From Acidobacteriota bacterium (GTDB lineage Bacteria > Actinomycetota > Acidimicrobiia > Acidimicrobiales > Microtrichaceae): a DNA stretch of 64,000 bases. A model generated the notes under the pieces. That model saw nothing but the letters and a program-made list of their open reading frames with translations. It ran no database searches and was not told the DNA's origin. This document shows positions 37,996 through 44,080 of the stretch, piece after piece. Numbering within the stretch: the first letter of the stretch is position 1; every line of letters starts with the position of its first letter. The position numbers were made by a program, and so were the translations under genes. Location of the stretch: assembly GCA_003577145.1 (NCBI GenBank), contig QEUP01000001.1, positions 1-64,000 of the forward strand, written 5' to 3'.

Positions 37996-39945
37996 TCACT
38001 CGGCGCTGGTGCGGCGCGGGTTCAGGTCGCCCCGTTCGACGAGGTACTCGACGATCCGGTTGACGCAAGTGGGGATGTCGTTGTCGACCGTGTCCAGGAC
38101 GAGGTCGGCGTTGGCCGGTATGTCGTAGGTCGCAGTGACGCCGGGGAACTGAGGGATCGAGCCCCGGTCGGCGGCTGCGTACAGGCCTGACGTGTCTCGT
38201 GCACGGCAGACCTCGATCGGGGCGTCGAGATGGACCTCGACGAACCGATCCGGCCCGACGAGATCGCGTGCCATGTCCCTCACGTGCTCTTTGGGCGCGA
38301 CCATCGCCATGATGCAGATCAGCCCTTGATCGTTGACGAGGCGTGCGACCTCCGACGCTCGGCGCAGGTTCTCGGAGCGCTCCTGTGACGAGAATCCGAG
38401 ATCCTTGCTGATGCCCAGCCGGAGGTTCTCGCCGTCGAGGCGAACGGTGCTGCGACCTCGGTCGAACAGGCGCCGTTCGAGCGCGGTGGCGATCGTCGAC
38501 TTGCCTGCGCCGGTGAGCCCGGTGAGCAGTATGGTCACCGCCTTCTGACCGTATCGAGCCTCGCGCTCATTGCCGGTGATCTCCGACAAGTGACGGGTGA
38601 GGTGTTCGTCGGGGGTGGCGGTCCAACCGGTTTCGTCCTCGGTGATCATGCCGGCTGCGAGGGTTGCGTTGGTCAACCGGTCTATGAGGATGAACGCGCC
38701 GGTGTGGCGGTTGCGACGGTACGGGTCGTACAGGATCTCCTGGTCCAGGGTGACGGTGCAGCGCCCTATCTCGTTCAACTCGAGCGTGGGTGCCGGCTCC
38801 GTCTCGAGTGTGTTGATGTCAACTCGGTGCTGCACCGACGACACCGCTCCGGTACTCGTCCGATTGCTCTGACGAACGAGGTACTCCTTGCCCGGGACAA
38901 GCTCCTGTTCGGCCATCCACACGATCATGGCGTCGACGTCGTGGCTGCGGGCGGGCGGATTGGCCGGGTGCACCAGCATGTCTCCTCGGGACACGTCGAG
39001 GTCCTCGGTGAGGGTGATGCTCACTGCCATCCCCGGCCCGGCCAGCTCGAGGTCGCCATCGAAGGTGACGATCCTGTCGACGTGGCTCGTCTTGCCCGAC
39101 GGGAGGACGAGCACCTCGTCGCCGGGGCGGACCACACCGGAGGCGACAGTGCCGGCATAGCCGCGGAAGTCGAGATCGGGCCTGCTGACGAGCTGAACCG
39201 GAAGGCGGAGGTCCTCGAGGTTCTGGTCGGCGACGATGGGGACGGTCTCGAGGTAATCCATGAGCGGCGGTCCCTCGAACCAGTCCATGTTCTCCCCGGG
39301 TTCGACGACCCAGTCACCGCGCAGCGCCGACATGGGTATGAAGAAGGGGTCGGTAATGCCCAAGCGCTCGCCGCACTCCATGTAGTGGTCGCGGATCTCC
39401 TCGTAGCGATCCTTGGAGTAGTCGACGAGGTCCATCTTGTTGATCGCGACGACGATGTGCTTGATGCCCAGCAACGACGCTATGTAGGAGTGTCGCTTCG
39501 TCTGGGGACGCACGCCGTTGCGCGCGTCGATCAGGATGATCGCGAGCTGGCAGTTCGATGCCCCCGTAACCATGTTGCGGGTGTACTGCTCGTGGCCGGG
39601 CGTGTCGGCGATGATGAACTTGCGGCGGGCGGTCGAGAAGTAGCGGTATGCCACATCTATGGTGATCCCCTGCTCACGTTCGGCTTTGAGCCCGTCCATC
39701 AACAGGGCCAGGTCGAGGTCCCCACCGACGGAGCCGACGGTCGCGCTGTCGGCTTCGACCGCCGCGAGTTGATCCTCGTAGATCATCTTGGAGTCGTGGA
39801 GCAACCGGCCGATGAGGGTCGACTTGCCGTCGTCCACCGACCCGCAGGTCAGGAATCGAAGGAGATCCTTCTGCTCGTGCTCCCTCAGGTAGCCGAGGAT
39901 GTCCTGGGCGATCAGATCAGACCTGTGGGCGCCCGCGGAGACCAT
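37996..39945 (-). CDS. cysNC: Bifunctional sulfate adenylyltransferase subunit 1/APS kinase
   Basis: 649 residues. The N-terminal EF-Tu-like GTPase (CysN) has GSVDDGKST (35-43), [28 protein letters not shown] and NKMD; two beta-barrel domains follow. The C-terminal 175 residues are an APS kinase (CysC) with P-loop GLTGAGKST (about 475-485), [18 protein letters not shown] and [15 protein letters not shown]. With CysD it makes APS from sulfate and ATP, using GTP, and then PAPS. The ATG at 39945 overlaps the cysD stop by one base. The fusion is common in actinobacteria. Confidence 0.96.
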
Positions 39946-40871
39946 CAGAAGTAGCCCTCCTTCTTCTTCTCCTCCATCGAGCCGGCTTGGTCGTAGTCGA
40001 TGACGCGACCCTCGCGCTCGGAACGAGTAGCGAGGAGCATCTCCTGGATGATCTCGGGGAGTGTCGACGCGTTCGACTCGACGGCCCCCGAGAGTGGGTA
40101 GCAGCCGAGCGTGCGGAATCGCACGCGCCGCATCTCGGGTTCCTCCCCCGGCTCGAACCGGAATCGCTCGTCGTCGACCATGATGAGCGTCCCGTCACGT
40201 TCGACGACGGGGCGCTGCTCTGCATAGTAGAGGGGAACGATGGGTATCTCTTGGAGCCAGATGTACTGCCAGACGTCGAGCTCGGTCCAGTTCGAGAGCG
40301 GGAAGACCCGGATCGACTCCCCGGGGTGAACCCGGGCATTGAACAGGTTCCACAGCTCCGGGCGCTGGTTCTTCGGGTCCCATCGGTGGTGCTTGTCGCG
40401 GAACGAGAACACGCGCTCCTTCGCACGTGACCTCTCCTCGTCCCGGCGGGCGCCGCCGAAGGCGGCGTCGAACCCTCCCGCGTCAAGCGCCTGCTTCAGG
40501 GCCTGGGTCTTCATGACGTCGGTGTAGTTCTTCGAGCCGTGGTCGAAGGGGTTGATGCCCTGCGCCAGGCCCTCGGGATTCGTGTGGACGAGCAGCTCGA
40601 ACCCGACCTCCTCCGCCATGCGCTCCCGGAACGAGATCATTTCCCTGAACTTCCACGTCGTGTCGACATGGAGGAGGGGGAACGGGATCTTCGCAGGGTG
40701 GAACGCCTTGCGAGCCAGGTGCAGCATGCATGACGAGTCCTTGCCGATGCTGTAGAGCATGACCGGGTTCTCGAACTCAGCAGCAACCTCTCGGATGATG
40801 TAGATGCTCTCGGCCTCTAGCTGTTGGAGATGCGTCATCCGCACTGCATCGATCACTGCGCTGCTGGTCAT
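39945..40871 (-). CDS. cysD: Sulfate adenylyltransferase subunit 2
   Basis: About 308 residues from ATG at 40871; in-frame starts at 40895 and 40898 would add 8-9. The PP-loop is [20 protein letters not shown]; further blocks are [50 protein letters not shown] and [17 protein letters not shown]. The adenylylating subunit of ATP sulfurylase; the downstream CysN partner drives it by GTP hydrolysis. No PAPS or APS reductase occurs in the window. Confidence 0.95.
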
Positions 40872-41062
40872 GGACGGTCCCGGCTTTCCTTGCATCACTT
40901 CGGCGGGTCTGCAGGGTCACTGAGGACCCATTGTGGACGATCGCGCATGTGCCGAACGAGTCGGGTCCCACCGAGTGCAGCAGAACGCATGGGCGCGACA
41001 GAGACGGTTTGCTCCGCGGTCTTCTGGGTCCGTCGTGCTGGAGAGCACACCTGAGGCGGAGC

Positions 41063-41323
41063 TCAGGCGGCGGCTTCGCCGTAGGGTTGGCCCGCCTTTC
41101 GGTAGCACTCGAGATGGTAGTGCTCCACGCGATCCCAAACCCCACCCACATACACGTTGCATATGACCTGTTGTCCGCGCTTCTTGGCCTGGAACTTGAC
41201 GCGCTCCTCGCAGTGGGAGCAGTCGACTGAGCTTCCCGCTTCGATGTTCCTGACTACCGCCCGACTCCGCCACTTCTTCTTGGGCGGTGACTTCCTCGGT
41301 CGGGTCTTGGTCTTGGTTGCCAT
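41063..41323 (-). CDS. Small zinc-ribbon-like protein
   Basis: 86 residues from ATG at 41323 (MATKTKTRPRKSPPKKKWRS). A very basic N-terminal 20 residues lead to a compact domain with CSHC, a later VICNVYV and HYHLECYRKAG, so at least four Cys and two His could hold zinc. The tail is short. It may bind nucleic acid. No known family is claimed. It lies between the sulfate operon and another small gene, all minus strand. Confidence 0.65.
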   Translation of the reverse strand: MATKTKTRPRKSPPKKKWRSRAVVRNIEAGSSVDCSHCEERVKFQAKKRGQQVICNVYVGGVWDRVEHYHLECYRKAGQPYGEAAA

Positions 41324-41395
41324 AAGAGAACCATCGGCGCTGTCGGGACTGACCTGAGTACATAGACCACTGATCACTTGGGCGGTCTGTTCCAG

Positions 41396-41779
41396 TCACT
41401 CTACGGGGCCATGACCGGATTTCGTATGCGGCCTGCGAATCGTCGCGGACCGGCCGAGGGATACCGCGGCCCGGACCAGATCCCGCACGTCGTCCTCGGA
41501 GGCTCCCTGAGCGACGAGCCGCTGAATCCTTCTCTCGAGATCGGCGGCAGCCGCCTCGTTGAATTCGCCTGCCTCGTGCAGCCAACCGGAGTTGCTGACG
41601 GCTGTCACGAGGATGAGGCAGACCGCGGCGACTGCCGTTGTCAAGCCGAAGGTGAGCGCAGCCCCGTTGTTGTCGGCGACGGAGGAGACGATCATTCCGG
41701 CTATCCCGCCGATGAACAACGCGCCCACGACCCCCTTGAATGCTCTGGGACTCATCGGGCGTCGCGTTCGAGTGGCCAT
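41396..41779 (-). CDS. Small membrane protein with SHOCT-like tail
   Basis: 127 residues from ATG at 41779 (MATRTRRPMSPRAFKG). Two hydrophobic helices (VVGALFIGGIAGMIVSSVA and LTFGLTTAVAAVCLILVTAV) are followed by a charged helix pair with LERRIQRLVAQGASEDDVRD, which resembles the short SHOCT-type helical motif. The end is basic. Function unknown. Confidence 0.65.
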   Translation of the reverse strand: MATRTRRPMSPRAFKGVVGALFIGGIAGMIVSSVADNNGAALTFGLTTAVAAVCLILVTAVSNSGWLHEAGEFNEAAAADLERRIQRLVAQGASEDDVRDLVRAAVSLGRSATIRRPHTKSGHGPVE

Positions 41780-41996
41780 CCCCAGCAGGGTTGCCGACAC
41801 TCACTCCGGAGGTGATGTGGCCCGCGGGTATGTCGTCTGTTGCTCAACTTCGATCCTCAACCTTCAATGGGCGTCCTCTGACCTGCGCTCGGCCAACCTG
41901 ACGCTCATGGGTGATGATCGTACCGGTCGATCATTCCCGTGACGCGCAGCGACCCGGCCACTGTGACCGGGTCGCTCGACTGACTGGAGTTGTCGC

Positions 41997-43337
41997 TCAG
42001 CGGCGCTTGCGGGCGGTGGACTTGCGCTTGGCCGGTGCCTTCTTCTTGGCGGTGGACCTGCGCTTGGCCGGTGCCTTCTTCTTGGCGGTGGACCTGCGCT
42101 TGGCCGGTGCCTTCTTCTTGGCGGTGGACTTGCGCTTGGCCGGTGCCTTCTTCTTGGCGGTGGACTTGCGCTTGGCCGGTGCCTTCTTCTTGGCGGTGGA
42201 CCTGCGCTTGGCCGGTGCCTTCTTCTTGGCGGTGGACTTGCGCTTGGCCGGAGCCTTCCTCTTCGCCGCCGCGGTCTTCCTCGCGGTGGCCCTTCTCTTG
42301 GCCGGAGCCTTTCTCTTGGCCGGGGCCTTTCTCTTTGCTGCCACTTTCGCCTCCTCGGCGGGCTCGGATGTTCCTGTTCCGGCGGTTGCTCTGTCGCTTC
42401 CGCCTTGTGCGGCCTCGGATGGTCCAAAGCCAGTTAGAGCCAGGTCGACGCCACGCCTGGGCGTGTCGAACGCCTGGACAACGAATGAGCGAACCTCTCC
42501 CTGGTCGAGCACCTCTCTGGCGCTGCGGGGAGGCGGATCGCCCATCGACTTGAGTGCTATGTAACAGCGTGCATCATCGGCAACCACATAGGCGCCATGT
42601 GAAGAGAACTCAACTACCTCTCCCTCCACGCTCGAACCGAGGGGATGATTACCAACGAACTCGATGAACGGTAGCGGATCGTTGATGGGTTCTGGGGGTT
42701 TACCGCGACGTCGCCGCGCGCCCTGGTTGTCTCGAGCGTTCCTGTCGACCTCGCTCTGAACATCCTGTTTGTCCTGTGGTTGCGTTTTGTCGCGCGGTTT
42801 GCCTTTGGTGGACGCCTTCTTCTTAGCAGGTGCCTTCTTCCTCGCGGAGTTCTTCTTCGCAACCTTTTTCGCGGCGGACGCACGCACCGGCTTCGCTTTG
42901 GCGCGTCGACGCGACGTTGATCTCACCGGCGAGCGTTCCAGGAAGATCCATCCGACGTCCGGAACTGGCTTGCCACCGATGAGTCGCCGCTCGTCGAAGA
43001 GCCATCGATACTCAGCCTGGAACTCCTGGAACGAGTCGTTGGAGACGACAGTGGCACCCGTGCGATCGGCAATCTCGAGGACGAAGGCGTCACCTCGCCC
43101 GATGGCACCGGCCGGCGGTGTGACCAGCTCGCCTGCCTCATGGGCCTCCTCGTAGCGCCGCCTCTCCGATTTCGCGATGCGATGGCCGAAGGTCGCGTCA
43201 ACGACAACGGTGAGCTTGTCGTGAGGGTGTTCCTTCAAGAACGCGCGCACAGCTTGGTCGAGTTGCTCGAGACTGGGCTTGTTGCGGCCTTCGGTCGCGA
43301 GATTGGATCCGTCGATGACGACATGGGTGCGGGCCAT
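41997..43337 (-). CDS. NYN/PIN-like RNase-fold protein with S1-like domain and histone H1-like repeat tail
   Basis: 446 residues, ATG at 43337. Residues 1-135 form a NYN (PIN-like) domain: VVIDGSNLATEG with D9, then LTVVVDATFG, AIGRGDAFVLEIADRTGATV and VSNDSFQEF, the acidic residues expected for a metal-dependent RNase. A lysine-rich linker follows to about 220. Residues 225-305 look like an S1-type RNA-binding barrel (GSSVEGEVVEFSSHGAYVVA). The last 110 residues are lysine/alanine/proline repeats of 12 residues (KRKSTAKKKAPA type), like histone H1 or bacterial H1-like tails. Together this suggests an RNA- or DNA-bound nuclease. The encoding DNA is a tandem 36-bp repeat. Confidence 0.8.
   Translation of the reverse strand: MARTHVVIDGSNLATEGRNKPSLEQLDQAVRAFLKEHPHDKLTVVVDATFGHRIAKSERRRYEEAHEAGELVTPPAGAIGRGDAFVLEIADRTGATVVSNDSFQEFQAEYRWLFDERRLIGGKPVPDVGWIFLERSPVRSTSRRRAKAKPVRASAAKKVAKKNSARKKAPAKKKASTKGKPRDKTQPQDKQDVQSEVDRNARDNQGARRRRGKPPEPINDPLPFIEFVGNHPLGSSVEGEVVEFSSHGAYVVADDARCYIALKSMGDPPPRSAREVLDQGEVRSFVVQAFDTPRRGVDLALTGFGPSEAAQGGSDRATAGTGTSEPAEEAKVAAKRKAPAKRKAPAKRRATARKTAAAKRKAPAKRKSTAKKKAPAKRRSTAKKKAPAKRKSTAKKKAPAKRKSTAKKKAPAKRRSTAKKKAPAKRRSTAKKKAPAKRKSTARKRR
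42013..42250. repeat. 36-bp tandem repeat within the NYN protein gene
   Basis: Six clear units of 36 bases plus partial ones, with period-defining block TTGGCCGGTGCCTTCTT recurring every 36 bases. Differences between units are mostly CTT/CCT swaps that change K to R. The period is a multiple of three, so unit loss or gain would keep the frame. Such an array is likely to vary in length between strains. Confidence 0.85.
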
Positions 43338-43441
43338 GGCAATCTTCAGTCAAGCAGGTGTCAGTGGGTCAATAGTGGATCTGAGGCGAACCGATCCGTC
43401 TCCGACTGGTGATCTGGATGATCCGGCGCGACCATGCCTCG

Positions 43442-44080
43442 GTGATCAAGGCCGTGCTCTTCGACTTCGGCGGAGTTCTCACGACGAGCCCGTTTGAAGC
43501 CATGGCTTCCTACGAGATCGAACACGGTTTGCCCGCGGGTTTCATTCGGAGCGTCAACGCTACCAACGGTGATGCAAACGCGTGGGCGAAGCTGGAACGC
43601 GGCGAGGTGTCGATCGAGGAGTTCTCGGACCTCTTTGCCGAGGAGTCCGCCTCCCTCGGCTACGAGGTTCCAGGCGAGGCGGTGCTCGCCTGCTTCTCCT
43701 CGGGCCGACTCAGACCTGCGATGCTGGAGGCGTCACGGAGGTGCGCTCGGGTGCTCAAGACCGGTCTGCTCACCAACAACTTCAGCGCCGCCAGCGACGC
43801 GTTGCCCGCCGCCGCGCGCGAATTCGGCCCCGTCCTCGAGCACTTCGACGTCGTGCTCGAATCGAGCCGGGTCGGCGTGCGGAAGCCGGAGGTACGGTTC
43901 TACGAGCTGGCCTGCGAGCAACTGGCGATCGAGCCCTCAGAAGCGGTGTTTCTCGACGACCTCGGCGTGAACCTCAAGCCGGCCAGATCGATGGGTATGG
44001 CCACCATCAAGGTGGTTGATCCGGCTGAGGCGATCGCAGAGCTCGAGCAGGTTGTCGGCTTGGCGTTGAGAGATGGGTGA
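43442..44080 (+). CDS. HAD-superfamily hydrolase, subfamily IA
   Basis: About 212 residues from GTG at 43442 (VIKAVLFDFGGVLTTSPFEA); an ATG at 43418 or GTG at 43409 would add a few residues. The nucleophile is the aspartate of FDFGGVL; motif II is in GLLTNNF, and motifs III/IV are RVGVRKPEVRFYELAC and AVFLDDLGVNLKPARSMGM. The pattern DFGGVL with a large helical cap resembles the acyl-phosphatase-like N-terminal domain of ACAD10/epoxide hydrolase proteins. Substrate unknown. It converges on kgd. Confidence 0.87.
   Translation: MIKAVLFDFGGVLTTSPFEAMASYEIEHGLPAGFIRSVNATNGDANAWAKLERGEVSIEEFSDLFAEESASLGYEVPGEAVLACFSSGRLRPAMLEASRRCARVLKTGLLTNNFSAASDALPAAAREFGPVLEHFDVVLESSRVGVRKPEVRFYELACEQLAIEPSEAVFLDDLGVNLKPARSMGMATIKVVDPAEAIAELEQVVGLALRDG

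Follow-up and report, generated by a model that had tools for sequence, protein, structure and literature searches.

A predicted NYN ribonuclease with an S1 domain and a basic repeat tail in the Acidimicrobiia

Does a single open reading frame in an acidimicrobial genome really join a nuclease domain, an RNA-binding barrel, and a long basic tail, and what might such a protein do? The frame lies in a 64,000-nucleotide stretch of DNA, here called the window, and an initial annotation made from the sequence alone read it as an NYN RNase-like domain, an S1-like domain, and a histone H1-like tail in one protein. The frame begins with ATG, encodes 446 aa, and occupies the coordinates and strand given in that annotation; the architecture recurs in orthologs, so that the presence of all three parts in one protein stands. 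The gene and its parts are as follows.

41997–43337, minus strand: whole gene, 446 aa, in the order NYN domain, basic linker, S1 domain, basic K/R/A/P tail
42918–43337, minus strand: NYN (PIN-like) domain, residues 1–140, from PF11977 and the PDB matches KHNYN and ZC3H12A
43311–43313, 43197–43199, 43089–43091, and 43035–43037, minus strand: NYN acidic residues D9, D47, D83, and D101, respectively
42693–42917, minus strand: basic low-complexity linker, residues 141–215, net charge +22
42432–42692, minus strand: S1 (OB-fold) RNA-binding domain, residues 216–302
42000–42431, minus strand: K/R/A/P-rich tail, residues 303–446, 144 aa, net charge +54, probably disordered
42012–42263, minus strand: tandem array of 36 bp × 7.0, encoding STAKKKAPAKRK-type repeats

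The NYN and S1 domains

Residues 4–113 match PF11977 (RNase_Zc3h12a) in Pfam with an E value of 8.6e-11 and 42.2 bits, above the curated cut-off of 23, which upholds the NYN assignment. The best solved-structure matches of this part in the PDB are KHNYN and ZC3H12A, and in those alignments D9, D83, and the aspartate of the SND motif line up with the window protein. Modeling of the domain by AlphaFold, with only three usable sequences, gave a pLDDT of about 40–45, so the case for the fold comes from profile homology and the conserved residues. The acidic site expected by the initial annotation proved to be conserved among homologs: across all 68 distinct orthologs D47, D83, and D101 show no substitution, E16, R53, R81, E105, and K123 likewise never vary, and the NYN domains that carry them diverge down to about 60% identity. 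D9 and N12 are also constant in these 68 proteins, but partly by construction, because the extraction motif admitted no residue but D or N at position 9 and required GSN; one ortholog outside that motif (L081) retains the aspartates too. An NYN ribonuclease associated with CRISPR in Bacteroides, which cuts RNA internally with Mn and with relaxed specificity, has aspartates at the three matching positions; they lie together in its predicted active site, and the first of them is essential (PMC11346440).

A stand-alone 166-aa NYN relative with 34% identity is encoded elsewhere in the genome from which the window comes (contig C8, L004, 1318–1818, minus strand). Its region equivalent to D83 reads GGHVAF and its SND motif is replaced by ITD, so that it is possibly an inactive paralog, and similar short relatives are present in other genomes too.

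As a single sequence, the protein matches PF00575 at residues 231–300 with an E value of 5.9e-4 and 20.6 bits, 1.4 bits under the cut-off of 22. A 13-sequence family profile retrieved bacterial ribosomal protein S1 at an E value of about 1e-20. The fold predicted by AlphaFold for residues 222–301 has a pLDDT of about 77–89 over most of the region, and Foldseek aligned the predicted barrel with S1 OB-fold structures in the PDB (E value about 1e-5, rmsd about 2 Å), among them Mycobacterium tuberculosis, Vibrio, and E. coli S1. Profile and predicted structure thus agree in supporting the S1-like domain. It lies in the same frame as the NYN domain in 66 of 69 extracted proteins, the remaining three being cut off or frameshifted before it.

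The basic linker and the repeat tail

The tail, which starts at about residue 303 (42431), had been ascribed to the 36-bp array, and this holds for part of its length: the array (period 36, 7.0 copies, 97% match, score 469), the sole long tandem array within the window, encodes part of the tail, and the remainder lies outside it. The description of the tail as histone H1-like is likewise half right. Its composition is alike, but the NCBIfam H1-like model gave the window protein 12.9 bits against a cut-off of 80, which rules out membership in the histone H1 family and leaves a likeness of composition only. Antisense open reading frames with AFFLAVDLRLAG repeats (41911–42564, plus strand) were discarded as shadows of the repeat array.

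The linker between the NYN and S1 domains is strongly basic, like the tail, and both segments carry a basic charge in nearly all of the orthologs. Across 47 complete orthologs, the tail has a median length of 154 aa and a median net charge of +40, the corresponding linker values being 82 aa and +15, and the tail is at least 60 aa long in 45 of them. Tandem arrays were detected in 61 of 63 tail DNAs, with every best period a multiple of three, and two orthologs (L014 and L015) whose NYN domains are 100% and S1 domains 97% identical have tails of 78 and 158 aa. Together these observations bear out the suggestion that repeats drive variation in tail length, and they support in-frame gain and loss of repeats as its route; assembly collapse may contribute to the variation, since many of the genomes look like MAGs and 21 of the extracted genes are truncated at the edge of a contig. 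Three orthologs (L076, L079, and L081) keep both domains and are missing the C-terminal tail, and the linkers of L076 and L081 are themselves K/A/P-rich, from which it seems that basic charge matters more than its position.

Distribution and gene neighborhood

In whole-genome searches the NYN domain turned up in all 17 good genomes of the window's family and, within the order, in 111 of 190 good genomes, and a search with the S1 domain only returned essentially the same genomes, normally in the same open frames. Matches to the NYN sequence query in a draw of 296 genomes from the phylum were confined to the same class; a second draw, of 198 genomes, likewise had PF11977 in that class only, and PF11977 was detected in none of 14 control genomes. 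The named relatives, an Acidimicrobiales MAG and an Actinomycetota MAG, suggest that this class is the Acidimicrobiia. Recurrence of the whole architecture in about 60 distinct orthologs excludes chance, and on these sequence comparisons the frame at 41997–43337 is a real, conserved gene. It is absent from about 40% of the good genomes of the order, and so is not essential there.

The gene neighborhood was compared in 20 larger loci and the window, and adjacency to EttA, an ABC-F translation factor that binds the ribosome, was counted over 44 loci. Upstream, the usual neighbors are a divergent HAD hydrolase and kgd. Immediately downstream, 22 of the 44 loci have EttA in the same orientation; in relatives it matches TIGR03719 (E value 1.2e-278), its match begins about 80–250 nt past the NYN-S1 stop codon, and in several relatives it is followed by genes for two small proteins, u134 and u104. 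The window has these flanking features.

43409–44080, plus strand: divergent HAD-family hydrolase, conserved in synteny
41801–41996, no strand: slot from the stop codon to the gene that follows, the site of EttA in many relatives, empty here
41396–41800, minus strand: u134, 134 aa, no family, conserved in several relatives
41063–41377, minus strand: u104, 104 aa, with CxxC...HxxxC, no family, conserved in several relatives

The slot that lacks EttA measures 196 bp between genes. No EttA ortholog was found in the window's own genome, which is 96.6% complete, the best match having 38% identity over part of the protein. EttA is therefore not required, being absent from this genome and nonadjacent in half of the loci, and synteny with kgd and the HAD gene, which is uninformative on RNA, is as strong as that with EttA. 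Farther downstream, cysN/cysD (37996–40898, minus strand) share the strand of the NYN-S1 gene in the window and lie on the opposite one in relatives, to which they show only about 50–58% identity, a possible local rearrangement or replacement.

EttA regulates ribosome pausing (PMC11282234). In B. subtilis, an efp defect is suppressed when either of two proteins is lost, the ABC-F factor YdiF or Rae1, an NYN RNase that works at the A site of the ribosome (PMC6613710). The parallel between Rae1/YdiF and NYN-S1/EttA is suggestive, not proof.

Proposed function and relation to known systems

The reading that we favor, with moderate confidence, is that the protein is a metal-dependent endoribonuclease specific to this lineage, kept on RNA or RNA-rich particles by its S1 domain and basic tail, and that it serves mRNA turnover, perhaps coupled to translation. 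D9, D83, and D101, probably with D47, would bind Mn or Mg, and the NYN domain would cleave single-stranded RNA, held and presented to it by the S1 barrel, with little sequence specificity. The linker and tail would tether the enzyme to RNA or ribosomes as a nonspecific anchor for polyanions, a mode modeled on the lysine repeats that retain actinobacterial TopA on DNA. If total basic charge outweighs exact tail length, repeat slippage would be tolerated and the tail could be lost in proteins whose linker provides that charge. Turnover of mRNA would be the likely process, and a possible link to translation is suggested by how often EttA, the ribosome factor, is the neighbor on the same strand. 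RNase E is also present, so the enzyme would be at most one of several RNases; replacement of RNase E is ruled out by the same observation. A sharper version, which we regard as quite unlikely, has NYN-S1 work with EttA at paused ribosomes and cut the mRNA in stalled complexes, the length of its slippage-prone tail tuning dwell time on polysomes; if true, their cooperation would be a Rae1-like pathway built independently in the Acidimicrobiia.

It is unlikely that the tail binds DNA and so places the RNase at the nucleoid, to act on nascent RNA or R-loops. The TopA of the same genome carries the same kind of tail, and lysine-rich tails of actinobacterial TopA and the KPAA repeats of AlgP/PhaF bind DNA (PMC7398561, PMC9239181), which makes DNA binding by this tail possible by analogy. 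Both folded domains are nevertheless of RNA type, the conserved neighbors are a translation factor and metabolic enzymes with no DNA-processing genes among them, and the three orthologs without a C-terminal tail keep both domains. The R-loop processing or nucleoid control offered in the initial annotation gained no specific support from this analysis, and EttA synteny points towards translation instead; RNA decay, another of its suggestions, is plausible.

Processing of stable RNA, that is, maturation or quality control of rRNA or tRNA in which the S1 domain and basic tail would grip structured RNA, is decidedly unlikely. Such parts would suit binding of rRNA or precursors, and adjacency to EttA fits the ribosome as well, but the patchy presence noted above (111 of 190 good genomes) would be unusual for a core maturation enzyme. 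It is highly improbable that the tail serves to control or store the RNase by sensing polyphosphate or polyanions in general, or by anchoring it to granules: AlgP, whose KPAA-repeat tail is 154 aa long, is found at polyphosphate granules and needs that tail for their spacing (PMC9239181), but the argument is one of composition only and no polyphosphate gene was recognized in the conserved neighborhood. A role in a defense system was rejected on the absence of any PADLOC or PHROG match (no PADLOC family at an E value of 0.1) and on the stable synteny of the gene.

Among known proteins, the preferred reading as an endoribonuclease finds its closest counterparts in the Zc3h12a-like NYN RNases (Regnase-1/ZC3H12A and KHNYN; PF11977), a class of endoribonucleases with matching DGSN, D, and SND motifs. 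The window protein differs from ZC3H12A and KHNYN in being bacterial, in having an S1 domain instead of CCCH or KH, in an extra invariant aspartate, D47, and in its basic repeat tail. The NYN ribonuclease of Bacteroides fragilis, a Mn-dependent endonuclease with three corresponding aspartates (PMC11346440), is by contrast an effector of a type III CRISPR system, whereas the window protein has no PADLOC match. Rae1/YacP of Bacillus subtilis (PF05991) is also an NYN RNase from a bacterium and is linked genetically to an ABC-F factor; to our knowledge it has neither an S1 domain nor a tail. Membership in that group is ruled out, PF05991 being absent among the Pfam matches of the window protein up to an E value of 1. 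No PF05991/YacP-type gene was found in the window's own genome; such genes occur together with the NYN-S1 gene in many relatives, which rules out replacement of one by the other.

No description of the combination of NYN, S1, and basic tail, and no paper joining the Acidimicrobiia with an NYN domain, was found in the literature searched, which was covered in part. The architecture appears to be new within the NYN RNase family, each part being of a known kind, and it adds a conserved, uncharacterized putative RNase, beside the gene for a ribosome-pausing factor, to a poorly studied actinobacterial class.

The tail resembles the lysine-repeat domain of actinobacterial TopA and the KPAA tails of AlgP/PhaF in its H1-like K/A/P composition and its repeats, but those tails sit on a DNA topoisomerase or on granule proteins and this one on a predicted RNase. 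The window's own genome encodes, on contig C26 (L005, 1444–3111, minus strand), the C-terminal part of a topoisomerase I with a KKKGAA lysine-repeat tail. The lysine-repeat tail of actinobacterial TopA slows dissociation and raises processivity (PMC7398561), and that domain is, by analogy, the nearest functional counterpart of the tail described here. With a charged low-complexity tail that drifts in length, in register, while the folded domains stay fixed, these orthologs form a natural series for the study of tail function.
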